Assembly: GCA_028713325.1 (NCBI GenBank)
Contig: JAQTON010000001.1
Location: 62,001 to 126,000, forward strand
Length of the DNA: 64,000 bases
Direction of reading: 5' to 3'
Source of the DNA: Candidatus Altimarinota bacterium
GTDB lineage: Bacteria > Patescibacteriota > Gracilibacteria > BD1-5 > UBA2023
The notes beneath the pieces were generated by a model. The model was given only the letters and a program-made list of their open reading frames with translations. It was not told the origin of the DNA and searched no databases. A program made the position numbers and the translations under genes. Positions within the stretch are counted from its first letter, which is position 1; the number at the start of each line of letters is the position of its first letter. Shown here piece by piece: positions 28,481 through 57,518 of the stretch.

Positions 28481-31400
28481 ATGCACTATTCACGAATCCA
28501 AAAATGGCTCTCTTCCTTTTTGATTTTCTCTCTCCTTTTTCTCCAGACTTTCGAGGTTCCGGTGCTCAATACTACGCAAGCGGAAGCCAAGGTGAACGCG
28601 GATATCGTGTCTTTTATCGTGGATGATGCCATCTATAGCGGGGCGGTAAAATCCCGGGTTCTCCAGTACGCACAGGATGTGCAGGCGTACCTTCCGAACA
28701 CTCGGGTCGTTATTTTCCCGGTTCAAAAAACCGCGAATCCTTTTTCGATCGCTTCGGTTAATGAGAAGCTTTTTTACGAAGGGGACGGCGAAGGGCTTTC
28801 TCGACTCGTCGGAACCGTACTTATCGGAGAAGTTCCGCTCCCGGTAGTTCATAAGGAGGAAAGAGCGTTTATGAGCGTATATCCGTACGTGGATTTTGAC
28901 AATAAGAGTTTTGTGTACGATCAGACCAGGAATAGCTATGAATACACGACCAAAACTTTGATCGATGAGAAACCGGAGATTTGGCACTCGGTAATTCGAC
29001 CTAATACGGGTGACGCAACCAAGAACGAGAGTGAGCTCGTCACTTTTTTCAACAAAACGCATGATTTTTACAATAAACAGGGGCTTTTTTCTCCCGAAAA
29101 CACGCTCTTGGAACCGCGAGTTTTCTATATGGATACTTTTCATGATCAGGAAACCAGTAGTCCTGAGATGTGGAAATCGTACAATCTGTATCTCGAGAAT
29201 ATTGAAGACATCGCGTACAATCGTTTCAATAAATATCTTGCCAAGAAGCTTTATGATGCTTCGCAGGGGTTTTATAGTCTCGGTAGTGCATCGGCAACAA
29301 ATTCAGCTATCAAGTCCATTCTTGAGGCGTATTCCGGTTCCACTTTAGATATCTCTAAGGCTCCGGATATCACGACCAAAGACATCATAGAAAAATCGGT
29401 GAAACAATTTTTCGAAGTATTCAATGCGAAGTATATGGGGGATGTTCTTCGATATGTGTATAATGCCGGTCGATACGGGGATGCGAATAACGTTCGGGCA
29501 GACAGCACTCCGGTGATGATTGCCAAGAAAGATCTCTTCATGAGAACTACCCTGAAAGATGTGAATACCGCTCTTGAGTGAGCGATAGACACTCTTCTCA
29601 AAAACTCACTCGCAGAGAAAGTGAAGATTGCCACATCTTATGCAACCACCACTCGAACCCGCACACCCATATCTTCTGCCGGTACAACGGGCGGAACATC
29701 ATCCGCTCCTGCTTTTCGAACGAAAACTACCACAAAAATTTACAAAAATTACCTTTTTGGACAAGACGCCAGTACGATTACCGACATGAAACAATGTACC
29801 ATTGTTCGAGGAAGCACTCTTACCGTGGAAGCGAATCGCGGATACAATATAAAAAATGCGGAACTCGATGCGAATCTTTTGCAAGCGGACCTTCCGAATG
29901 CCGCATGTTTTCGCGGTGCTACCGCTGCGACGAGCTCCTACTGGTGAGGAAATTCTCCATTGAATTTTGATACAAACAAGGCACAAAGCGGAGAAATTGT
30001 CCTGAAATCTCATGGATATAAAGGCTTTGCAAAGCCGATTTATGATATGGCCGGTTCCCGAGAACTCGATTCCAATTCTCCTCTTCATATAGCGACTCCA
30101 CTGGATTGTCTCGATAACAGTATGTTGCTCCAACCGTACATTATTGGGACTAATGAAGACGGAACTCAGGAGGGTTGGCCGATAGAGACGAACGGAGAGC
30201 GTTTCAGCTGTATCACCGAACATGAGCCTCTTGCCACGCCCATTTCCGATTATTCTGCGTACCTCAATAATCTTCCCCTGGAAAACTGTACCACTTCGAA
30301 ACTGGAGCTCGACGGAGCGACGATACGAGAAGTTACCGATGACACTTGTGAATTCGTCAACAAGATAAAAGTATATAGTTTCAAAACACTCACCGGTTCC
30401 AGCATCATGGAGCACAAGTCTCCCACTGACGAGGAGTACGGTATAGAACTTTGAGAAATGGTAACCCCTTCCCTCCCATCTGATCGGGAGAGATATGTCG
30501 ATTATCTCGACAAAAACTTCGCCTATAAAAAAATAGTTTATCCGAATTTTTTTCGCATAACTCTCTCTGGATCCGAGCTTAATTATCCTGCTGCAACACT
30601 CAAGATCAAGAATCTTTTGGATGCAAAAACCGCAGAGATTCAAGCACTCGGCGGTACCATCGATCTCTACCGGATTTTGAGTGCCGATGAAAAAGTGTTG
30701 AATGCGGTTATAGAAGGAGTGATTTGGAATAATATGAAGAATGCGACTCTCAAGTATTCAAATACTTTGGAGCGAAGCCTCAATATCGATGGGGAGCAAA
30801 AAATCAGTGCCAACGATACAAAGAACGATTATGAGATTGCGTATCTCGGAGCACCCGGTGATGCGAAGAATATGTATCTCAAGGTGGATCCGGAGGCCAA
30901 GTCTCCTCCCTCGGCAGAAGTGGCCGGTATTATGGACCAAGTAAATAATTATCATGGACTTATTGACGGAACGAATATTGCCAATGTTTCGGGTGAACCG
31001 GTATTTACATGCGGACCGCCGGAATGAGTTCCTCTTTGGGAGTGGTTGCCGGCGATATTTTGTTGGCTTGGAACTATTCTCCCACCGACCATCAGTGCGG
31101 GAAGTTGTGGCGGATCCAACGGTAAAACAGGGAATCCACAGAATACTCCTTCCACTTTTGCGACTCCTGCAAATGCTCTCGATGCGAATGGAAACGGCGT
31201 ACTCGACGGGTATGAACTTATCGGTACCACCACCGGAGAATTGAAACTTCGAAATGGGGAGAAGGTTTTTGGATACGGAGAAAATGTGCCACTCGAAGCA
31301 GAACTCAGAAAAGACGGAAAGATTATCGATATCGACAGTTTTAACGTGATCTCTTTTGATATCAAAAAACTCACAGTACTGTCCTCGGCACAACATCCCG

Positions 31401-34400
31401 CTTCTACAGTGGTATACGACCGAAATGGAACCGGGACGATTGCCAATATCGACAATATCCTCCCCTATATCAATTTCCAACCGATGGAAATTCGGGCGCA
31501 AAATGGTCTTGCGAGCTATAATTTTTCTACGAAATACGATGACGTTGATGTAGTATTCGATGCACGCATTTTCACGAAAGATCGTTACGGAAAAATTATC
31601 GTCGACAAGAGATCAACACCGATGACTGTCTCCGTGCGTTCCGAGCGAATCTCTGTTCAGAGCAAAACAAAGAACCAAGCTCTTCCATTCGCTTTCAGTT
31701 CTATTATCGAAGCGGGAAACCCGAATGGTGCTCTTTTTAATCTCAAAAAGATAAATAAAGATGGAATAATACTTTCCGAAAATCTTCCCTATACTCTGAG
31801 TGTTTATGATGATATCGATAATACGCTTTTGCGTGGACCCATAAATGTTTCCGGGAATACCTATCTTTTCCGTGATGCATCGCTTTTGGATAGATCGGGA
31901 GTCTATCGTTTCGAATTCATCGACCAGAAAGGGATTAAAGGATTCACGACTCTCACCGTACTTCCTGCTTTGCCGACAAAAATAGAAGTGACTCCTTCTT
32001 CCAATACTTTTGTTGTTGGGCAAAAAACCACGGTTCTCGTACGTATTCTCGATGCCTTCGGGAATCTCGCACAAGGAGAAGTGTATAAGCTCGGCGGATC
32101 TATATCCTCTGGGGCAGAGTTCGTAGATTCGGATGGAAAGAAACTCGGAAGTACTCTGTCCAAGAATGTTATCCAATGATATGCGAGTTTTGACGTGACC
32201 AATTCCCAAACGAGCGATACTATGGATCTCTCGTTTCGTATCGACAGAGCCAATATCTCTTCCGATTCGGCACTCCTTCGTTCTATAGATTTCGCGAAAG
32301 TTTCCGTAGAAGTGGCAGACAGGGAGCATATAGTTGCCGGAAAAGAGAAACATGCCGTACGCATCAGGGTGCTGGATAGAAATAATCAAGTATTGAGCGG
32401 GTACAACGGGATTCTTTCCCTCGATTTTCCAAAACTTTCCGGAACTCTCAGTACCCCATTTGTACGCATTGCCAAAGGAGTTTCCGAAACAGATATTTTC
32501 CTCACTCCCGGATATGTTGCAGAAAAGAATCTCCGCATTTTATCGCAGATTCCCGGAGTCAGTGCTATGGAGGGGGACGTCGTTACCATTCTGCCCGATG
32601 TTCCTATGAGTTTCGCTTTTGTAAAAAAAGACGATCGCATGGAAGCACGAGAGGGAAATCTGAATACCACTCGAGCAACTCTCTATGACCGATATGGAAA
32701 TATTGCCTATACCGCAATGGGATATAACTTGACGCTCCGTATCCCGGAAGAATCTCAAAAATATGCGAGTATAGCGGATACGGAACACACCTTCTCCGGC
32801 GGTACTCTCGATTTCGACATAGGAGCCACTGCTCTTCCGGGAAAGGCGTATATCATAGGGAAAGTTGCTCCCGGACTCGAATCAAACAGTTTTACTATCA
32901 CCGATAAATCCAATAGAACTCTCACTGTCACGGGAATTTCAGAAAATGTCACTCCACTCGATACCTACTATATTTTCAACAAATCGAAGCTCGATGGCAT
33001 GCGATACGATGCTCAATATAGCGTCCTTCTCGGAGGAGAATACGGAGATGTGACGGTTGATGGATATCTGGGCGGTGAGATTCTCTTCAATCATGATTCC
33101 AAATCTCTGGCCGTTACCACGCTTCTGAATAATCCATGGAAAGAACAGGATATATTTGGATTCACTCCGGCAGGGAAATATTCCTATATAAAAAAAGCGG
33201 ATGATACGCAATCCCTGCAAACCAGTCTTATCGACAATGGATCAAAGAGTTACATCGCTTTTTATGACGCGTACCGTAAAGAATACATCGCTCGTGCCTG
33301 GCTCAATATCGACCCGAGCGTTACGAGATATCTTCCTTGTACGGGATCCGGGAATGATATAACGAATTGTGAAATCGCTTCACAGACGACCGTCTTTATG
33401 AAGGGATTCAATGGGAATACGAGTGTAGGAGAAAACGGATGACTTTCTCTTTATTCCCAGAATAATATACCGCTCCTTCGGATAAATCCGAGTGGAGGAA
33501 TGGAGAAATATCCGGGTATAAATCTGGAACTCGACGACAAAGGAATTTCCAATCTTCTCGGTATCCGCATCGTTTCAAATGGGGCTCAGATAGGGTATCT
33601 GGGTATCAGATTTTCGAGTGATACCGTAGAAACAGTTACTTCCTCCGGACTTGACTCAGCTCTTCGGTTACACAAAAATGCACTCGTGTTTGAAACTCTC
33701 TCCAATAGGTATATTTCTCATAAAACACACCTTGGGGTTTCGTCGAGAGGATCCGAAGGAATTATGTTTGCTTTCAAGGATAGTGCAACTGGTGAGATAG
33801 GTGCTCTCGATACTGCATATATTACAAAATCCGGACTGAACGGTTTGGAAGACTATCCGAAAAAAACAGGTATCGGATGGGAAGGAACAAATCGGATGCT
33901 TTTGGAAGTGTCTGCAGGAACCTCTATCGGTAATGCCACGAAGTTTTATCAGACGTTCTCGACTATCACTCTCGGAGATGCGGTTTCACATCTTCCGAGG
34001 GTTTCAACGACGAGCAATTTTGACCAGACTATTGGAACTCAGATTTCTGTCGGAAATGGAGAGCAGATAGAATCGTACAAAAAGATCGACATAAACGCAG
34101 ACGGAGTTCCGGATATGGTGATTTTCTATGAAAGCGGGAAGATCCAGCTTCTCATAAATTATTCGGGATCTTTCAAAGACATGGGGTATCTTGCCTATGT
34201 TTCGGACGGAGGGGCATGACGAAAATGAGTGGGAAATTTCTTCGGTGATGGGTACGATGACATCGTCCTCACCGATGCAAAATGAAAACTTATCGTCCTC
34301 GACAATATACAAGGAAAACTTACACGCACTTCTCCCATTATCATAAACTCTTCCGGAGCCACGGAGGATATTCACGGATACATCCAGCAATTGGAAGTAT

Positions 34401-37400
34401 TTGATATGGACAGCGATGGGAAATCCGACATCGTAACGCTCGACGATAGCGGAGAAATCAACATACTCTATGGAACCGAGCGTACAATAGCAGGAAAAAC
34501 AGAGCACTTTTTCACAAAACATCTTATAGAAAGCGGTCTCGGACTCAGACTCTCAACGGGAGTGCGAAATGATGGCGGGGCGTTTTCCTATACGGGACTC
34601 CAGTCTCCCAATTCATCCGGAAATTTTCTCTCGGCCGACAGTTCCACAGGAGCTATCAATGAGGGTATGATTAATAATATCATCTATTACGGATACAACT
34701 ATCAGTCCGACAACACTACGAACAATACTTCGCTCCGCAATGCGAATGCAGCGATCGGGGCGAGCGTCGGTACAAACGTCATAGATAATACGAACAATAC
34801 CCAACTGACAGCGGATATATCTCAGATGATAGCAGATACTGCTCTTCTCGCTGGTTCTGGAAATACTGATTTCAGTGCCCTTTCCGCTTCCAGCAGAGGA
34901 AGCGAGAGAACGTTCATTCGCTCGCCTTTTGCCGAGGGGAAGGGGTTGAAAGTAGAGAAAAATTACAAGATTATGACGAGTGAAACGAGAGATACAATGC
35001 AAACGGGTGATAAAATCCGGGTGGAAATCGTACTTACCAATACTTCAAATAAAACTTTTCGGGATGCCGTATATCTCGATTCCAATGACCGTAAGATTTT
35101 CTTGGAAGACCAGAGTGGGGTATATACTCTTGTGAGAAACGGAGGAACGGAAGAACAACGTCCTCTCAAATACCTCACAAATGGAGAATTTGATTATGGA
35201 TTTGATTTTACGAGTATCGCTTCGGGAGAAGTCATCAGGATACAATACCTCATAACCGCCACTCCCACGGCATTCGGAAAGATGGCTGTAGGACTTCTTG
35301 AAAAAGGAGAATGAGGGGATGATATATATGGCGATATCAGTCTCTCTCCCAACAATATATGCGGAGGAAGTCTTATGATGTGGCGATCCGTGGAGCCATT
35401 CGCCCGAAGTTATGAGAAAGGAAGCAAGAATTTTATAGATAATTCCGTTCTCCCTGATTCTCTCGCAAAAAATGCCATCGATCTCGATAAAAACGGCATT
35501 CCCGACTATATTGATGAGCTTATAAAAAGCGGAAAAGAAGGTACGTCGCTCCTGAAAACATATTCTGATACCCAACTCGGGATATACAATACAGATACGA
35601 ACGGCAATAGCATCCCGGATCGCGGAGATACGAAAGGATCGAAGATAGTCTCTTATAATCCGAGCAATGGAAGCATAGAAATAGGAGGACTCAGTTCCGG
35701 GAATATCGAAGCTATCAATTCTTGAATCGATGAAATCGTTCGATGACTCGGGTGTGGATTCGGATGAGGATCTTGTCTTTCTCTCCCGCTCAACTGGGCA
35801 CCTCTTGCTCCGGGATCTGCCCCCACGGCATTTGGATTTCCGCTCGGAGAGATGAGTCCGAGCACCGGTTTGCCTATATTTTCAGCACTTACGGGAGTTC
35901 CACTCTATGGTCCATGGGGATGTATTCCTATCCCAGCGGTATGGCCATTATCACCCATCGGTTATGAGAACACTTGCGGAAGTAATCTTCCCAATGCGGG
36001 TTGATGGCTTGGTGCAACGAGTCCGTTTAATTTCTTCCGACTCTATATCACCCCGACTATTACCGGTGCTGTCGGTATGGCAGCATGTTTTGGTGTGGTT
36101 CCAGCGGTAAGTGGAAGAATCCCCCCTCCGGGGGTTTCTCCGCTCGTTCCATGAGGGAATTGTATCGTCGCAGCGAAGCCACTTCTCGGCTGTAAAAGTG
36201 ACGGTTCTGATGGGAATGCCGGGTCTCTCGGTCTCGGAATGAATACAAATAACTCCTATGTCAATGCGAACGCCTGTATAAAACAGTGAGGAAATACCGC
36301 ACTTCTTCCAGAAGACAGGAAAAATATTATCTCCTATGTTGCGGGAGATAATGCACATCTTCCGGAGATCAATGCCAGTATGGCACAATGAAATCTCTCA
36401 AGTCTTTCCGCCGGACCGCTCGTCGGTATCGGACTTGGAGGGGGAGAAGAAGCGAATTTTGAAGTCTCTCTCGATACCGCGGCTATGAAAAACTTTGATT
36501 TTGGAAATATTATAAAAATCAAGAACTCACGAGTATCTGCCTTTCCGGATTTCCTTATGGATTGGGCGAATCGACAATTAGAAGAGATAGTAAATAAACT
36601 CACGAGTCTTCCGACTCTCTATATCATCCTTCCAGATTTCGATGGATTTGATCTTACCGGGTATGGTGAGATTTTCGATAAATTTTCAGCAGGAAAATCG
36701 GCCGACGGGAAAGATTATTCTGCATCGATGCTTTCAAATTCTCAATTGGAAAATCCCACTCTCTGATTAGCCCAATTGCAGTATAATTCTCTTGTCACGG
36801 ATAATAAAGATACGATTAATTCTCTCGGAAAAAATGTTTCCGGGATCAAAGCGGCATATGAATTTATGTCGCACCTTCCGCTCATCAAACTTCAAACGGA
36901 GATGATAGATATCGCGATACCGTGGCTTTCATTCGAAGAGATGGATAAGTGGCTCATCAGTGCGAAATTGACCATGAAGCAGTGGAAAATGGAGCTTGCG
37001 GATAAGCAGGACAAATGGTCCCGTCTCCAAAATCTGAGCGAGGCAGACAAGAAAGTTATGGTAGATACGGAGTGACTCATAGGATCTCTCCAGGAAAATA
37101 TTCAGATTATCGAGGAATATAAAAGATTCCCCGAGAAACTTCAGAAGTACCTCACTTGGAAAGAGCGGTATGCGAGTCAGATTCTCTGTAATATCGAAGC
37201 GATAGAAGAGATGATGGGGGGATGGCTATCCGACAACGGAAAGCGTTTCCGTACTTGGGTGGAACTCTATATCCTCATCAAAGCCATTCTCAAGTCTTGG
37301 CAACTTATCGTGGATCTTTTCTACGGATATGAGGCAGAATGCAGCGTATGTCGCAATGAGAGATACGATTTGAAGCACTTTGTTATGAAGCTTATTTCTG

Positions 37401-40400
37401 CGATTATTCCACAGATTCCCATTATCCAGTTCCCAAAATGGCCGGATATTTGGCTCGATCTGCATAATATTCGCGGATGACTTCGTATCCTTATGCCGGA
37501 GTTTCATTTCAACTTCGTGCCGATGATTCTCCCCGAGCTTCCTCGACTGTATCTTCCGGATGTTCCGACCGTGAACATCGGACTTCCGAATCTTCCGATA
37601 CTTCCTCGACTTCCGGAACTCCCGGAACTTCCCGATCTTCCGAGTCTTCCAAATATTAAACTTCCCGATCTTCCGCCACCGCCGACCATTCCGAAACTCT
37701 TCGGAGGTATCGCTGCGGTGCTCGATATCTTTAAGATTGTTGCGAAAATTCTCTGTATTATGCGTATCAATCCATTTGTACCGGAATGGAGAGCGGGTGA
37801 TCAAATCGCCCAGATTACCGAACGACAGGGAACTATGCCCGGACTTGATTTCCTCAATGTGGAGTTTCCGAATTTCTCACTCTCTTTTATCGATGCCATA
37901 AAAGTCACCACGTATGTGAATCTCGAGTTTGATATCGATTTCATCGTCGCTATGTCAAAAGCGACGCTTGATCCACTCAATCAGTTCACGAACGATCTTT
38001 CCAATATCGGATCCATTACGATACCGGATATTAATCTGCGAGACACTCTCCCGCAGAATATCAACGTGAATCTCGGACCTCAAGGGTATGTTCCAAAGAA
38101 AAAAGCGACTAAAAATGAAATAATGTCAGCGCTTCTCCAGAAATTCTCTTTTGATATACTCCATAATTTTATCGCTCTCAACCAGTATATGGAGAAACAT
38201 TCCAAAGAAGAGGTAACGGTGCAGGGATTGAAAGACGTATTGACAGAAAACATACAAAAAATCCGAGGTATCCACGAACCGAAAGCTCTTGCAATCGCTG
38301 AAACCCTTCAAAAAGCGGTGAATTATCAAGGGGAAAGCGAAACGAAATTCATACAAGAGCTGACAAAAGAAAATACGGAGAAATTCAATTTCATCAAGGA
38401 TTATATACTCTTGGAGAAAATGGAGGCGACGCGACTCAAGACAGAGATGGACACGATACTCAGAACCGGCACGATGAATAAGGAAACCACCCCTACGCTC
38501 ATCTCTATCGGAAGCGAGAATATAAAAGCCAGCTCTCTTTCCACCGATACCGGAGTCGCAGATGATTTAAAGAAAGAAATTCTCAGGGGCAATGCTCGCA
38601 TACTTCCCAGCCTCGAACGTATTAAAAATGGTGAGAAAGACAAAGCTACTCAGGAGATTCAAGAAATGGGGAATGTTCTTGTGACGGGGATTCAAGAGAG
38701 TCTCTCCTCTTTTGCTCGTGACACGAAGAGAAATGATTCGATCCATACCCTCGCTTACGCCGATAGTACGAAGAAACTTCTCGCTATCAACACCAGTGGA
38801 TCATCCCCATCTACGAGTACCTCCGCTCCTTCTCCATCGCAGTCAACACAACCGTCCACAACAGCAGCTTCTTATCAATACGAGGGTATTTATATTTTAG
38901 ACAAAAACAATAAACAGGTCCGACTTTTTGACTATATCGATGCGGTGGATGGGAAAGAAGAACTCGTATATAGCGATGTGGATAAAGACGGAGACGATGA
39001 TATCGTCTATCGAATGGATAATAGTCTCTATCTGAAGCAGAATTTCTCCAAAGATATCGAGACGAGTCATTCTTCCGATTCGCCAAAAGTACTTTCTCTG
39101 CAAGATTTTCTCAATACCGTGTCAGATGCCGGTTCTTCCAGAGTTCTTGCTGCTCCGAATCATTTCGAAGAGACGTTTATCACTTCCGGAGAGATTGATT
39201 TCTCTTTCCGCCCGGCAAACCCACTTCGAGACAATCTCTTTCGATTCGAATACTATGATTATATCGATCGATTCGATAGAATCACTTCCGGAGAAAATTC
39301 CCTTTCCATCTCCCCGAAAACAACGATTCATATGGTGGATTTGATTCCGGAACTTTCGAGTGAAACAGTTATGGATACCGCTCATACAGGGTTCGTCTGA
39401 CGACGAAATACCCTGACCTTTGGTCGCGGATCATGAGAGGCAACGGTAACCATGAATGCTTATCAGTATGCGACACCGGAAACAAATGGCACAAATCCCA
39501 TTATTATTGCCGAATGACGCACGGTATATACCGATGCCGGAGGTGCGACCATTTCTTATATTCGTGACGGTGAAACGGAAATGCAAACGCTTTCTTTTGA
39601 CCGAAATACGAATTATGAATTTCTGACAAACACCAAGATATGGGTACGGAGCGGAAAGCTTTATCTCTTCAAGAATTCTCAGGAACAAAAGACTCTCAAT
39701 GCGGGAGATATCTATGGTGTGCCCGTTCTTCCGGGAACAAAAGTGGAACTTGCAAATGAGAACAGCTTCATATCCTTCTTCTCTCATGACGGAAGTTCTC
39801 TGCGTTTGGACGGACCGGGAACCTACCAGTATTATTCACTTTGAAAAAAATCAGAGGAATATACAGTATCGCTTCCAGCTCCAAATGATTGGTACTATGC
39901 GAAACTGTACTCCACGGCAAAAAATATAAACAGCACTCCTGTTTCGCTCCACCTTCTCTCTCCTCAAAAACATACTGATATGGAAGGTCCGCTCATCACC
40001 TACGGGGATGCGATTCGAGTACCGGTATATCAAAAGCTCGTACTGAGTTTCGCGACCTATATGGAGGATATATCGGGAGTGAATAAGGTATGGATTGATG
40101 CAGATCTTATGAAAGATACGGACGGAGACGGAGACACGAAGAACGATAAAGACAGCCTCGATACTACGACGCTTCATGGAATCAGAAAAGGAAATACCCT
40201 TTCGAATTTTGAAGTGGGACCATTTGACACTCTCTTTACGAAAAAAATACGACTCTTTGCACAGGACGGGAATGGAAATATATCTTCAAAAGATCTGACT
40301 CTTACCGTGTATCCGCCAGTTCCAGAGATTGTATCTCTTTCTGGAAATGTGGTTTCCGGAGGTTTGAGTGAAATTCTCGGGAATGAACCCATTGATATAT

Positions 40401-41008
40401 TCCGACTCAGAAACGGTGCTCTTACTCGCATAGAACCTACTGCATCGGATTTGGCAAAAACAAAAGAAAATGGAACATTCACTCTTCCTACGCTTGAAAC
40501 AAGCGGTATTGTTCTTACGCAATCCGGACAAAATATCGCCACGATACAGGAACGAACCGGGAAGATTACCCTTGAAGATACTTCATTTCATATCTCTGTT
40601 CTTCCGGCAACCAAAGATTCGCCACTTCATATTCAAGTGCTTTCCCCAACCAATAACTTGGTATTTTCCGAGAGCATAAATATCTCAACCGTATCTCATA
40701 TGGAATCGGTATCGAGTCTCGATACTATCACCGGAACCGGCATATTTGTTTCTCCAATTATTGGATTTTCCTTTATAAAAAACACTCTATCGAGTCCGAA
40801 TCTTCCGGGTGGAGGATATGTCATCGATACAAATCATAAGGCAATCGCCGGTATCTCAAAATCGGGAGATATCTATATTCTCGACACGGACTATGAACTC
40901 TCCTATGCAACAAAAGGTTCGCATATCCTTCTTCGAATTCAAGATTCGAGGAAGAACACTGTCGCAGATATTTTGTATAAGATTGATGCGGAGTATGTTT
41001 TAAAATAA
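28481..41008 (+). CDS. Giant secreted surface protein (4,175 aa)
   Basis: All the large pieces from 28481 to 41008 lie in the same frame and are separated only by TGA (more than 20), never TAA or TAG, so this is one gene of 4,176 codons. It starts with a signal peptide (hydrophobic core SSFLIFSLLFLQ, cleavage near AEA, residue 36). Visible parts: an N-terminal globular region (about 37-370); Ig/invasin-like beta domains (about 1165-1480, around VLVRILDAFGNLAQG); FG-GAP or EF-hand-like calcium loops (NADGVPDMV near 1870, DMDSDGKSDIV near 1975, DTNGNSIPD near 2370, DVDKDGDDDIV near 3500, DTDGDGDTKND near 3878); a Leu-Pro tract (about 3015-3072); a Ser/Thr/Pro linker (about 3437-3465); and a FecR-like segment (about 3700-3790). 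No C-terminal anchor is seen. A calcium-dependent adhesin or attachment protein is inferred. Confidence 0.9.
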
Positions 41009-48648: not shown

Positions 48649-49866
48649 ATGCAAACGAAAAACATCGATTATTCCATATTTTTCATCGTTCTCTCGCTCG
48701 TGGTGTTCGGGATGATTATGATCAGCTCCGTAAGCGTTTATCCGTCCTTCAAGGTAACCTCCCTTATGGTAACGAAAGGATTGCTCGTTGAGCCGAATAA
48801 TTATTTCTATCTTCTCAAAAATATCACCCATGTATTTCTCAGTTTTCTGCTTTTTGCGTTCATTGTAAAAACTCCCTATTCTTTTTTTGAACGATATGCG
48901 AAACACATCTTTATTGCAGGAATATTTTCTCTTATCCTCGTATTTTTTATAGGAACCACCTATAACGGAGCCCGGGGATGGATCAATGTTCCGTTCCTTC
49001 CGTTCTCTCTCCAACCGGTGGAGTTTATGAAGTTCGGACTCATTGTCTATCTTGCTTATTTTCTCAAGAAACGTCATTCGCAAATCGCTGATTTTTTCAA
49101 CGGATTCCTTCCGTATATGTTCAATTTCGGGATTATTATGTTTCTCCTCATACTCCAACCGGATTTCGGTTCCATCCTCATCTGTACTCCTCTCGTTATC
49201 GCCATGTTTTTCGTCGGTTGAGGAAATGCCAAGCATCTTCTCGCTTCATTCGGGGTGTTTATGATATTTGCACTCTCTATTTACGGGCTCGGAAAACACA
49301 GTACCCCGACTGACAGAAATTCTCTCTCTTATATCACCGATCGAGTGGATAATTTTCTCGCGGATAATAAAAACGCCATACGAAACAAAACCATCAATTT
49401 TCAAACGGAGCAAGGGCTTATAGCTATCGGAAGCGGAGGGTTTTTCGGGCTCGGATTCGGGAAATCCATACAGAAGTTCTGATATCTTCCGGAAGTGGAA
49501 GGGGATTTTATCTTCTCGGTTATCGCCGAAGAGCTCGGTTTTCTCGGAGTGTTTTTCCTCGTATTCCTCTATCTCATCATCTGATGGCGCGGTTTCCTCA
49601 TCGCCGAAGCCACGCAGGATTTATTCTGAAAATACGTCGCCACAGGTATTACCACACTCATTCTTTCACAGGCTTTCATCAATATAGGAGTGAATTTGAA
49701 CATCCTTCCGCTCACGGGAATCACTCTTCCGTTCATCAGTTACGGAGGCTCCTCCCTCCTTTCTCTTATGCTTGCCGTGGGAGTGCTTCTGAATATCTCG
49801 CGAACCGCCGATTATGCGAGAGTGGAAAATAATATGGGGTTGTTTCGAAGGAATCGAATGAAATAA
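48649..49866 (+). CDS. ftsW: FtsW/RodA/SpoVE-family peptidoglycan polymerase
   Basis: Four TGA codons are read as Gly, giving 405 residues with about ten membrane helices. Conserved SEDS motifs are present: NGARGWINVPFLPFSLQPVEFMK cut here to its key residues (ARGW, QP.E), the FGLGFGKSIQKF-Gly-YLPEVEGDFIF loop, IAEELGFLG, and PLTGITLPFISYGGSS. These proteins polymerise glycan strands with a class B penicillin-binding protein. FtsW (septum) and RodA (side wall) are hard to separate by eye. The gene ends right before a strong terminator. Confidence 0.92.
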
Positions 49867-49901
49867 AAACCCCCCGCAATATCATTGCGGGGGGTTTTTC
49901 C
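49867..49901. terminator. Bidirectional terminator between ftsW and the chemotaxis gene
   Basis: AAAACCCCCCGCAAT pairs with ATTGCGGGGGGTTTTT around a short centre. It directly follows the ftsW stop and faces the end of the reverse-strand chemotaxis gene. Confidence 0.93.
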
Positions 49902-49935
49902 ATCCTCCTTACTGGATGTTTTCCTCCTTTTTTGG

Positions 49936-51600
49936 TTAATTTCAAATTTTGAATTTCGCTACCATGTCGGTTAAACTACCGGCGATATTTTGCAAGCCCT
50001 CGGCATTTTTGGCTACTGATTTGGTAGCGTTCGATGTTTCCTCGGTTGTTTGCGTAATATCTTCCATGGATATTGCCACTTGCCTCGCGGCCATATCCTG
50101 TTCTTGCATAGCATGGATAATTTCATTTACTTGACCATTGATTGCCGTTGCCCCGGTGGCAATTTCCTGAAGAATTTCCTCTGCCTTTTTGGAAAGACCG
50201 AAGCATTCGGATACAAGTCCCACATTGTGATTCATCAAATGAGCGGTATTTTCAACATCGTTCTGAATTCCCTTGATCATTCCAGAAATTTCTTTTGTTG
50301 CATTTCCGGTTTGTTCAGAGAGTTTTCGGACTTCATCGGCAACGACCGCAAATCCCCGACCAGACTCACCCGCTCTTGCCGCTTCAATTGCCGCATTAAG
50401 AGCGAGGAGATTTGTCTGTTCAGCGATTCCTTTGATTGTTTCCACAATCATGGTAATTTTCCCGGACCTTTCGGAGAGGGATCGAACCACGTTCGCCGTT
50501 TCTTTCGTGTTATCACTTAAACGAGTCATTCCTTCTTGAACATCTGAGATAGCCGTAGCACCTTGAAGGGCATTTTCGTGATTCTTTGCAATACCCTTTC
50601 CGCTTTGTTGAGCGGAATCTGTTACCGAAGTAATCGATACGGACATCTCCTCGATAGCAGCAGCCGTGGAAGCACTTTTTTCCGACTGTTTGAAAACCGC
50701 ATTGTTTATATGTCTTGATGCGACAGTCATATCTTCAGCATTCGCCTTAACTTTTTCCGAACTTTCTCGAACCGATGCAAGGGTAACGCGCATCTTTTCG
50801 AGAAGAACCTCAAATGCTTTGGTAATTCTCCCTATCTCATCACGGGATTCTATCCCCGTTGAAATGGTGAAATCGGTAGTTTCGCCAACCGCAACCATCG
50901 CACTTTCAAGTTTCTGTACCGAGGAAGAAATGGATCGAATAATCCAAAAACCCAGACCGAGACTTATACTGATGATAATCAGTACCAGCCCGATAATAAT
51001 TTTTTGGGTGAATTCGTACCGTTCATCCTTTTCCAGAATCTCGTTGTTCGTCGCTTTTTCAAGCAAAAGCACGAGTTCATGAATCCTTTGGAGGACCCTA
51101 ACGACTCTTGGCTCCATTTCCTGTAAAAGAATGGTTGTTCCCCGGTCGTAATTTCCTTCCTTTGCCGCCTTTGCCGCCTGCAGAAGTCCATTGGTAACAA
51201 AATCCTGCCTCCCTGACACAATTTCGCTAAAAAGAGCCTCCTCGCCATCAAAAAATTCATGATCACGATACTTTTTGAAAACATTATCGATCTTTTCTTT
51301 GTTTTCGGCGATCCTGTTGAGATGAACATCGATCCTGTGGTCGCCATGAAGGCCGGATGCGATTTTATCCTGGGGATTGTGTTGCAGTGCAAGTTTTATC
51401 TGGTTTCTATTGTCCTGGATGAGTGTTTGAATCTCAACCAAAACAATAGCGGGCAAGAAGTGATCGTGAATAACCATATCGCCAAAATCGTTGGCATTCC
51501 TCCAGGAAGCCATGAGAACACTTGTTATCAAAATGATGGCAAGAAGTGAACTTCCCACCAACAAAAAAAGTTTCTGTTTAATAGAAAAATTCATACGCAT
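49936..51600 (-). CDS. Methyl-accepting chemotaxis protein; apparent foreign gene
   Basis: ATG 51600 is chosen because a perfect AAGGAG lies 7 bases upstream, unlike other genes here. The product has a membrane helix near residues 12-32, a four-helix sensor domain, a second helix near 205-225, a HAMP linker and the signalling hairpin [20 protein letters not shown] with [17 protein letters not shown]. It reaches the usual receptor end (DMVAKFKI) exactly at TGA 49942-49944. With table 25 it would gain Gly-Asn and stop at TAA 49936-49938 (554 residues). No other TGA occurs in 552 codons. No che or flagellar genes are in the window and they are rare in this lineage. Recent transfer from a standard-code donor is inferred; its function here is unclear. 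Confidence 0.93.
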
Positions 51601-51607
51601 GATGTTG

Positions 51608-51613
51608 CTCCTT
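51608..51613 (-). promoter_or_regulatory. Shine-Dalgarno sequence of the chemotaxis gene
   Basis: AAGGAG stands 7 bases before the ATG at 51600 and decides that start over in-frame upstream codons. It is one of only two good Shine-Dalgarno sequences seen before genes in this window. Confidence 0.85.
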
Positions 51614-51697
51614 TTCAAAAATGAAACTGCTGTGAATATTAATGACCGATTGCGGAGTATTTGTATATCTTTTTTCATTAAAGTCAAATAGATCTAA

Positions 51698-51745
51698 GAA
51701 AAAATGTCCCTTTAACTTATTTCAAGATATGGGGACATTTTTTCT
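51698..51745. terminator. Hairpin ahead of clpB
   Basis: AAAAATGTCCC and GGGACATTTTTT pair around a 20-base loop and are followed by T residues. It lies in the 271-base gap between the chemotaxis gene start and clpB; no gene is seen in the rest of that gap. Confidence 0.7.
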
Positions 51746-51871
51746 CCGTTGTTTCATGTGTGACGGAACACGAACTTGTCAATTCATCAGATTTTTTCAT
51801 TTCCTCTTGCTTTTTAAATTGGCACGCATATACTGTATGTGCTAAATTATTTCATAATCTTCTCCTTTTTT

Positions 51872-54442
51872 ATGAATCTCGAACGCTATACCATATCGGC
51901 TTCCAAGCGACTGGAGGAAGCACAAAATCTTGCCATTGCCACATGAAATCCCTCGCTCGAAAGTATCCATCTCCTCTCCGCCATTCTCTCATCGAAGGAG
52001 AGTATCAACCACGAACTCCTCGGAAGAGTGGGAACAGATACGGAGCTTCTCACCAAACGGGCAATGGAACAACTCGAAAAACTCTCGAAAGTGAGCGGGC
52101 AATCGGGTATAATCCTTTCCGCCGAGCTTAATACAGTTATAACCTACGCCGATACGCTTGCAAAAACCATGCAGGATAGCTATATTACGGAAGAACACTT
52201 GTTTCTCGCACTCATCGAAAAAGCCGCAAGTCTTTCGGATCTTTTGGGCACTTTCAGTATCACATTTGCCAACTACAAAAAGGAAGTGGAGAATCTCCGC
52301 GGGGGCGAAAAAGTCACCTCCAATGATGCGGAAAATCTCTATGAAGCACTCAAAAAATACACCATAGACCTTGTGGAGATGGCGAAGAAAGGAAAAATCG
52401 ATCCCGTCATCGGACGAGAAGAGGAAATCCACCGAACCATTCAAATTCTCTCCCGAAGAACCAAAAATAATCCCGTTCTGATCGGAGATCCCGGAGTTGG
52501 GAAAACCGCCATTGTCGAGGGAATCGCCCGAAAAATTGTCGAGGGAGATGTGCCGGATGTCCTCAAAAATAAACGAATTCTCACACTTGATCTCGGAGCT
52601 CTCATTGCCGGGGCGAAGTACCGCGGAGAGTTCGAAGAACGGCTGAAAGGAGTACTGAAAGAAGTCGAGAAATCGGATGGAAACATTATTCTCTTTATCG
52701 ACGAGGTTCATACCATCGTCGGAGCGGGAAATCAGGAAGGTGGAGCGGATGCGGGAAACTTGCTCAAGCCCGCTCTCGCTCGCGGAGCGATCAAGGTTAT
52801 CGGAGCGACGACCATCAACGAATACCGAAAATACATCGAGAAAGATCAGGCTCTCGAACGACGGTTTCAGCAGGTTATGGTCGACGAACCGAATATGGAC
52901 GATGCGATAGCCATACTTCGTGGAATCAAGGATAAATACGAAGCATTTCACGGAATCAAGATTACCGATCGTGCCATTGTCGCTGCGGTGGAACTCTCGG
53001 TCAAATATATCGCCGACCGCAAACTCCCCGACAAAGCCATCGATCTCATAGATGAGGCGGCATCGAGCGTGAAGATGAGTTCGACTTCGAAACCGATTGA
53101 ACTCGATAAACTCGAGAAAGATATTCGATCGCTCGAAATTCAGAAAGAAGCAATAAAAGCCGAGAAGACTCAAGATCCGAAAATAATGAACGAGCTCGAA
53201 AAAAATCTCGCCGACCGCCAAGAAGAATTTCGTACCAAGCTCTCGAAGTGGCAACGGGAAAAAGACCTCATCATCTCGGTGAAAACCAATAAAGAAAAGA
53301 TCGAATCTCTCAAAAACGAAGCTCTCGAACTCGAACGGGATGCGGATTATGCGGGAGTTGCCCGCATCCGGTACGGGGAGATTCCCGTGCTCGAAAAAAT
53401 CATCGATTCCGTGGAACAGGAATTATTGGTTATCCAAAAAAAAGGAGAATCCTTTCTCCGAGAGAAAGTGGATATCGAGGATATTGCTCAGATTATCGCG
53501 AAATGGACTCGCATCCCGGTCGGGAAGCTCGTCGAAGGGGAAGGAGAAAAATACCTTCATCTCTTTGAACGACTCTCCTCCCATGTGGTCGGTCAAGACA
53601 ATGCTCTGAAACTTGTTTCTGAAGCTGTTGCTCGAAACAAGGCAGGACTCTCGGATCCCGAAAAACCCATCGGAAGCTTCCTCTTTCTCGGACCGACCGG
53701 AGTCGGAAAAACCGAGACGGCGAAAGCCCTTGCCACTGAGCTTTTCAACGACCCGCACGCGATGATTCGAATCGATATGAGCGAGTACGGAGAGGCTCAT
53801 ACGGTGGCGCGACTCATCGGTTCTCCTCCCGGATATATCGGACACGAGGAAGGCGGACAGCTCACCGAAGCAGTTCGCAGAAAACCCTATTCGGTCATCC
53901 TCTTCGATGAGATAGAGAAAGCCCATAGTGATGTGTTCAATGTATTCCTCCAGATACTCGACGACGGACGATTGACGGACGGAAAAGGACGAACCGTGAG
54001 CTTCAAGAATACGATTATCATCATGACCTCCAATGTGGGAAGTCGACTTATCGAGACGACAAACGATGAGAAAGAACTCACGAAGAAAATCATGGGCGAG
54101 CTCAAGGCGTATTTTCGTCCCGAGTTCCTCAATCGCATCGACGATATCGTTGTCTACAATCCTCTCTCGGAATCGGTTCTTTCTGGAATCGTGGATATTC
54201 TTCTGCAAGACGTGACTGCTCTGCTTGCAGAGAAACACATCACGGTCACCTATGACGTGAGCCTCAAAAAAGAACTCATCGCCACCGGCTATGATCGCGA
54301 ATTTGGAGCACGACCGCTCAAACGAGCGATTACCCGAATGGTCATAAATCCACTCTCGACGAAGATTCTTTTGGGGGAACTTATGGAGGGAATGAACGTG
54401 AAGCTGAAGATGAAAGAGGGGGAACTGGTAATCTCAAAGTAA
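51872..54442 (+). CDS. clpB: Disaggregase ClpB
   Basis: One TGA (51944-51946) encodes Gly in IAT[13 protein letters not shown], so the start is ATG 51872 and not the later ATG at 52028. The 856-residue protein has the Clp N-domain, a first AAA+ module ([30 protein letters not shown]), a coiled-coil middle domain (about residues 400-520, [13 protein letters not shown] onward) that separates ClpB from ClpA/C, and a second AAA+ module ([31 protein letters not shown]). ClpB pulls proteins out of aggregates with DnaK, whose gene is also in this window. Confidence 0.97.
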
Positions 54443-57095: not shown

Positions 57096-57518
57096 ATGAA
57101 ACCGCAAACTTTCGCAATACTCAAGCCAAACGGCAGAATCGTACAAGGAATGATTCTCAAGCAAATCAAAATCGCCGGCTTCAAGGTTATTCGTGAAGAA
57201 GTCCGAACGCTCGATATGGAAGTGTTGCGGGAACATTATGCACACCATGTAGACAAGCCTTTCTTCCAGCCGATGGCGGATTATCTCGTCTCCGGGTCGA
57301 GTATCCTGCTCATCCTCGAACGTGAGGACGATGCGGATCCGGTTCGGTTTCTCCGGGAAATGGTCGGTAAAACCGATCCGAAAAAGGGGGAACCCGGACA
57401 AATCCGCCATGATTTCGGCGTTCATCATCCGACGGTCATCTTCATGAATGCCATCCATGCAAGCGATGCTGGGGAAGTCGAGGAGGAAATAGCACGGTTC
57501 TTCCCGAACCATACATAA
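57096..57518 (+). CDS. ndk: Nucleoside diphosphate kinase
   Basis: The 140-residue product has the family length. It begins TFAILKPNGRIVQGMILKQI and carries the active-site His in MNAIHASDAGEVEEEIARFF (about residue 119), with GQIRHDFGVH before it. Ndk moves the terminal phosphate from ATP to other NDPs, which feeds the nucleotide pool used by the dcd and thyA genes nearby. There is no TGA codon. Arg and Gly codons are more mixed by eye than in the neighbours, and the promoter and Shine-Dalgarno sequence are of standard bacterial type, so recent acquisition is suspected. Confidence 0.95.
   Translation: MKPQTFAILKPNGRIVQGMILKQIKIAGFKVIREEVRTLDMEVLREHYAHHVDKPFFQPMADYLVSGSSILLILEREDDADPVRFLREMVGKTDPKKGEPGQIRHDFGVHHPTVIFMNAIHASDAGEVEEEIARFFPNHT

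Follow-up and report, generated by a model that had tools for sequence, protein, structure and literature searches.

Can a gene from a bacterium with the standard genetic code settle in a genome that reads TGA as glycine, and does its former stop codon remain recognizable there? Alternative genetic codes have often been suggested to hinder the exchange of genes. The question is raised by an MCP-type chemoreceptor gene of a Candidatus Altimarinota bacterium (Gracilibacteria; assembly GCA_028713325.1, here G000), located at 49936–51600 of the window, the 64,000-nucleotide stretch of contig JAQTON010000001.1 that was analyzed. From the sequence alone, the gene had been described as a rare case of a receptor freshly imported from a standard-code donor and read through its old TGA stop. 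Our analysis indicates that, very probably, a receptor gene carrying its own Shine-Dalgarno (SD) sequence and a TGA stop came from a standard-code donor, was inserted in the slot between ftsW and clpB, and is read through to a TAA.

Results

Use of genetic code 25 is expected to be reflected in TGA sense codons within resident genes, and in the absence of RF2 together with the presence of a tRNA with a UCA anticodon. Both were found in G000, a 1.05 Mb genome in 5 contigs that is 94.9% complete. In called resident genes (~97,000 codons), TGA makes up 667 of 6881 Gly codons (9.7%), and these codons are spread along the genes, consistent with sense-codon use throughout. A giant open frame in the window (28481–41008, plus strand, 4175 codons) contains 24 in-frame TGA codons. 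A tRNA with a UCA anticodon lies at about position 506736 of the first contig (G000:C1); it is labeled SeC by ARAGORN and is predicted to be charged with Gly. No RF2 (prfB, TIGR00020) was found above cut-off in G000, only a sub-threshold match at the level of RF1; this absence, like that of CheW below, is judged on an assembly of 5 contigs that is 95% complete. Among 59 genomes, TIGR00020 exceeded the cut-off in a single 2.7 Mb, 500-contig bin, and nearly all others gave one RF1-level sub-threshold match. Because no RF2 was detected and a UCA-anticodon tRNA is present, the terminal TGA of the receptor gene is expected to be read as Gly.

The receptor gene itself occupies the minus strand from 51600 to 49936, with 552 sense codons from the ATG at 51600, followed by TGA, AAT and TAA. 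Its product contains an N-terminal transmembrane segment and four-helix-bundle (TarH/4HB) sensor domain (51073–51600; PF02203/PF12729), a HAMP domain (50791–50946; PF00672) and an MCP signaling domain with a consensus hairpin tip (50047–50580; PF00015, 4.4e-42), all on the minus strand. The PF00015 match spans residues 342–519 and scores 144 bits against a cut-off of 34.6, with the hairpin tip conserved, and the HAMP and periplasmic sensor domains of the same polypeptide likewise exceed their Pfam cut-offs. The nearest solved structures in the PDB are MCPs. By these measures the gene encodes a complete 4HB/TarH-HAMP-MCP receptor.

If the TGA (49942–49944, minus strand) is a former stop codon, it is expected to fall where homologous receptors end. 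In standard-code receptors from Nitrospirota (L165, L167, L170), Zixibacteria (L129, L132) and Enterobacter (L176), the stop lies exactly 151 residues past the hairpin-tip motif, and the same distance is found in the TAA-ended receptors of code-25 genomes (G004a, G004b, G006a, G016a and G037b). In G000, and in two further code-25 receptors, G014a and G280, the single TGA of each gene stands at exactly residue 151 past the tip; G013a, G016b and G031a, which end at or near a TGA, were left out of this position-exact count. Reading past this TGA in code 25 adds GN in G000, G plus 14 residues in G014a, and GKKEEN in G280. Since the resident TGA rate in G000 is 0.7% per codon, the occurrence of a sole TGA at position 151 in each of three receptors is not attributable to chance. 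The proposal that the natural C-terminus is reached exactly at the TGA is thus upheld, and the position of this codon is the strongest of the import signs.

With TGA expected as Gly and a TAA two codons further on (49936–49938, minus strand) as the effective stop in code 25, the predicted protein ends in ...KFKI-GN, as originally proposed. Glycine would thus be inserted at the TGA in vivo. Alternatively, TGA could still terminate translation at this site in the host, through a leaky RF1 or its context, and no extension would be made. The predicted readthrough rests on sequence, and the extensions of G014a and G013a enter terminator hairpins, which might select for termination; however, RF2 was not found, the UCA-anticodon tRNA is present, and resident genes use TGA throughout as a regular Gly codon. 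Termination at the TGA is therefore considered very unlikely. The predicted Gly-Asn tail lies past the end of the signaling helix and is probably harmless.

Translation signals of a donor may also be retained upstream of an imported gene. An SD sequence, AAGGAG, is located 7 nt 5' of the receptor ATG (51608–51613, minus strand), whereas in the resident comparison set, sampled stretches covering about 400 kb of G000, AGGAG precedes only 3 of 227 ATG-started genes. The observation that the receptor has an SD sequence where residents have none is therefore confirmed, and it is a strong sign of import. No 16S gene was found in the G000 assembly, hence the anti-SD could not be read. In the comparison of codon use with residents that had been suggested, the receptor departs only mildly from the common pattern, 16 of 172 resident genes being more atypical. 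Thus, of the foreign translation signals expected after horizontal transfer, an SD sequence within an SD-less genome is accompanied by mildly atypical codon usage.

The lack of TGA in 552 codons had also been put forward as a sign of import. The absence is real, with none of the 33 Gly codons of the receptor being TGA, but as evidence of import it is weak: P0 is about 0.034 at the resident rate of 9.7%, and TGA is likewise missing from 7 of the 68 residents that have 25–45 Gly codons. Zero internal TGA was accordingly dropped as the main evidence in this low-TGA genome.

Several other genes of G000 share these features. A nucleoside diphosphate kinase gene (PF00334; window 57096–57518, plus strand) has the SD sequence AAAGGAG, no TGA and a TAA end, and no counterpart was found in the syntenic stretches of four congeners; it is a further gene that was probably imported on its own, 5 kb from the receptor. 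A stand-alone response-regulator receiver gene (L090 7801–8193, plus strand; G000:C1:467801–468193) also has an SD sequence and no TGA, and is followed by a second ATG with AGGAG upstream; together they look like an imported small operon. A gene for a small basic protein of 67 aa (L079 11419–11622, minus strand) has an SD sequence in this SD-less genome as well. It was considered as a candidate for bS21, for which Pfam and NCBIfam gave no confirmation.

A horizontally acquired gene is expected to be present sporadically against a background of conserved gene order. To the left of the receptor lies a resident ftsW/rodA with four in-frame TGA codons (48649–49866, plus strand; PF01098), and to the right a resident clpB identified with Pfam (51872–54442, plus strand); no chemotaxis gene is nearby, as had been noted. 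In four genomes of the same genus (G001, G003, G004 and G006), ftsW and clpB are kept in the same arrangement and are 87–91% identical to those of G000 (89–91% for ftsW, 87–91% for clpB). In none of the four is an MCP found between them; other minus-strand genes are present there, some of them surface- or pilin-like by inspection. The interval (window 49867–51871; L184–L187) is variable, with G001 and G006 sharing one gene and G003 and G004 differing. Presence of the receptor is thus sporadic at a syntenic locus.

The same comparison bears on the possibility that assembly or binning fused DNA of a different organism into the contig. The assembly is incomplete, in 5 contigs and with no detectable 16S gene, which counts in favor of such a chimera. 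However, both flanks are conserved in the genus in the expected order and strand, so that a chimera would require two joins; single-gene islands of this kind also occur in other assemblies, some of them in few contigs (G016, 8 contigs). Because resident flanks stand on both sides of a receptor that is present or absent at the level of the genus, chimerism appears unlikely from the sequence, and we give it only a very slight chance.

The ends of the interval contain several further elements. An intrinsic-terminator-like hairpin with a 16-pair stem and a T run on both strands separates the 3' ends of the MCP gene and ftsW (49865–49899). Directly past the receptor stop lies the SD-like sequence AAAAAAGGAGGAA (49921–49933, minus strand), with no gene after it, and a second SD-like sequence, AAGGAGG (49904–49910, minus strand), is partly within a small hairpin. 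GGAGG-type SD-like motifs are seen shortly 3' of many imported MCP genes (G001, G004, G006, G016, G037 and G280), with no gene after them and often with a terminator; in G280 the motif follows the fossil TGA. A conserved 3' hairpin around GGAG is present in some imports only. Upstream of the receptor, folding predicts a long hairpin, AGAAAAAAUGUCCC...GGGACAUUUUUUCU (51696–51746, minus strand; z -4.6), which is absent at the other fetched loci, including those of congeners. A mobile element was rejected as an explanation of this hairpin, as a second copy was found neither in the window nor at other loci.

If the receptor was imported recently, a close relative might be found among standard-code bacteria. 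Searches of general genome contigs gave four distant matches, none of them a donor; plasmids and phages gave full-length matches of about 27–29% identity at best; and 246 Nitrospirota genomes gave a best score of 188 bits, again with no donor. In the general contigs and Nitrospirota genomes, identities did not go much above about 35%; the sampling of donors is thin and lacks a wide range of Pseudomonadota or Desulfobacterota chromosomes. The nearest kin, from the same genus or family, is 37% identical. With this as the best identity, no donor found and codon usage only mildly atypical, the description of the import as fresh is not supported.

The tree that was to reveal the donor instead places the receptor with G004a, G014a, G004b and G006a, from code-25 genomes of the same family, at a support of 96/90 and with thin donor sampling. 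This grouping raises the possibility that a single MCP lineage entered the family early and spread vertically and laterally, with its few TGA codons and SD sequences kept by chance or regulation. The sparing use of TGA in G000 would fit such a history, as would the more distant MCPs of G292 and G018b, which stayed long enough for TGA to accumulate in them. However, the clade mates are only 28–47% identical, and those compared for position are at other loci, the receptors of G004b and G006a having different neighboring genes. Internal TGA, which in close orthologs would have spoken against import, is absent from all four mates, and SD sequences are kept in G004b, G006a and G014a; divergence within code-25, SD-less genomes should have erased these marks. 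In G004b, none of the 31 Gly codons is TGA, beside neighbors that use TGA for 28% of Gly (P0 3e-5). A stretch of G004 (L063; G004:C1:212001–230000) is TGA-rich and AT-rich, with TGA for 28% of its Gly codons and about 3% in other sampled stretches of that genome. As the ftsW-clpB slot is also free of MCPs in the four congeners, long residence is considered unlikely, and separate imports from related, unsampled donors are favored.

Import of receptors is expected to leave similar traces in other code-25 genomes. MCPs above cut-off were found in 13 of 59 relatives and, within the class, in 19 of 288 genomes sampled. Internal TGA is lacking from most full-length receptors of code-25 genomes, also where 45–70% of the Gly codons of their neighbors are TGA. 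No TGA was seen among the Gly codons of G016a (0/21, P0 2e-10), G016b (0/12), G037b (0/17) or G049a (0/17). SD sequences precede 12 of 20 low-TGA MCP genes and, by the same rule, 30 of 473 neighboring genes (p=2e-9), but none of the five TGA-rich MCP genes. One of the latter kind, the full-length receptor of G292 (L189, G292:C17, minus strand), uses TGA for 41 of 54 Gly codons and has a consensus hairpin tip and no SD sequence, which suggests that some imports are retained. The MCP set can be read as a gradient of imports, from recent ones to old ones, although their order in time is inferred. Import thus appears to be recurrent across the order, with the same fossil stop in two other code-25 genera (G014 and G280), and the description of the event in G000 as rare is not supported.

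Such recurrence could be explained by neutral sampling with occasional retention, because receptors make up one of the largest gene families in candidate donors (up to tens of candidates per Nitrospirota genome); the prominence of this family among imports may therefore reflect sampling rather than selection. Receptors might instead be kept readable to donors (SD, no internal TGA, ends that work in both codes) by selection instead of by recency of import, being useful in, or shuttling to, standard-code host or prey cells, which we regard as most improbable. In three code-25 genomes, Aer-like receptors are present as overlapping PAS and MCP frames (L066 8838–10395, L067 8851–10771, L073 8693–10496), representing either real split genes or frameshifts.

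A functional chemoreceptor is expected to be accompanied by CheA and CheW. The receptor is the only MCP above cut-off in G000, with a second, sub-threshold match, and the search of the genome for cheA and cheW that had been suggested revealed no CheA/CheW-type domain in the 94.9% complete assembly; a CheW domain was found in 3 of 59 relatives. The protein is thus a receptor by sequence, for which a role in chemotaxis is unsupported. Because no CheA or CheW domain was detected, it is probably an orphan, which may either signal via another partner or be in transit.

Discussion

The SD sequence, the absence of an MCP from the slot in congeners and the TGA at position 151 together support the proposed origin from a lineage that uses the standard code and SD sequences. 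One chemoreceptor gene, together with its SD, would have been acquired from such a bacterium, possibly by uptake of DNA from prey or host cells, and inserted into the variable ftsW-clpB slot of a code-25, Gracilibacteria-type genome. The stop codon of the donor would have been TGA. Host ribosomes would then insert Gly at TGA and Asn at AAT and stop at TAA, giving a 554-residue receptor that ends in -KFKIGN.

These observations imply that a code change of TGA to Gly does not keep foreign genes out. For three receptors, each of a different code-25 genus, the place of the donor stop can be pinpointed to a single residue. The added tail then gives a direct measure of what the crossing costs, and SD loss and TGA gain give one of how long ago it took place. 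The range from receptors with an SD and no TGA (G000, G016a) to one in which TGA accounts for 41 of 54 Gly codons and no SD is present (G292) could serve as a usable clock of assimilation.

A word search of the literature returned no paper on MCPs in Gracilibacteria. Gene acquisition in code-25 bacteria has been described for Vampirococcus lugosii, with 126 genes (PMC8080830), and horizontal acquisition for a Gracilibacteria BD1-5 genome (PMC6851277). There, as here, genes of foreign origin have come into genomes in which TGA stands for Gly; however, in the parts of these papers considered here, acquisition is established by phylogeny or similarity, and neither donor stops read through at their ancestral position nor imported SD sequences serve as markers. 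Phages of Gracilibacteria and Absconditabacteria that are compatible with the standard code (PMC10746230) likewise indicate that TGA-free genes work across the code boundary, but that work, in the parts considered, concerns phage genomes and describes no fossil stop codons, whereas single chromosomal genes are concerned here. Finally, the G000 receptor shares with Tar/Tsr-like 4HB/TarH-HAMP-MCPsignal receptors its domain order, consensus tip and tip-to-end distance of 151 residues, and differs from them in residing in a genome without a detected CheW/CheA domain and in its predicted C-terminal Gly-Asn extension.
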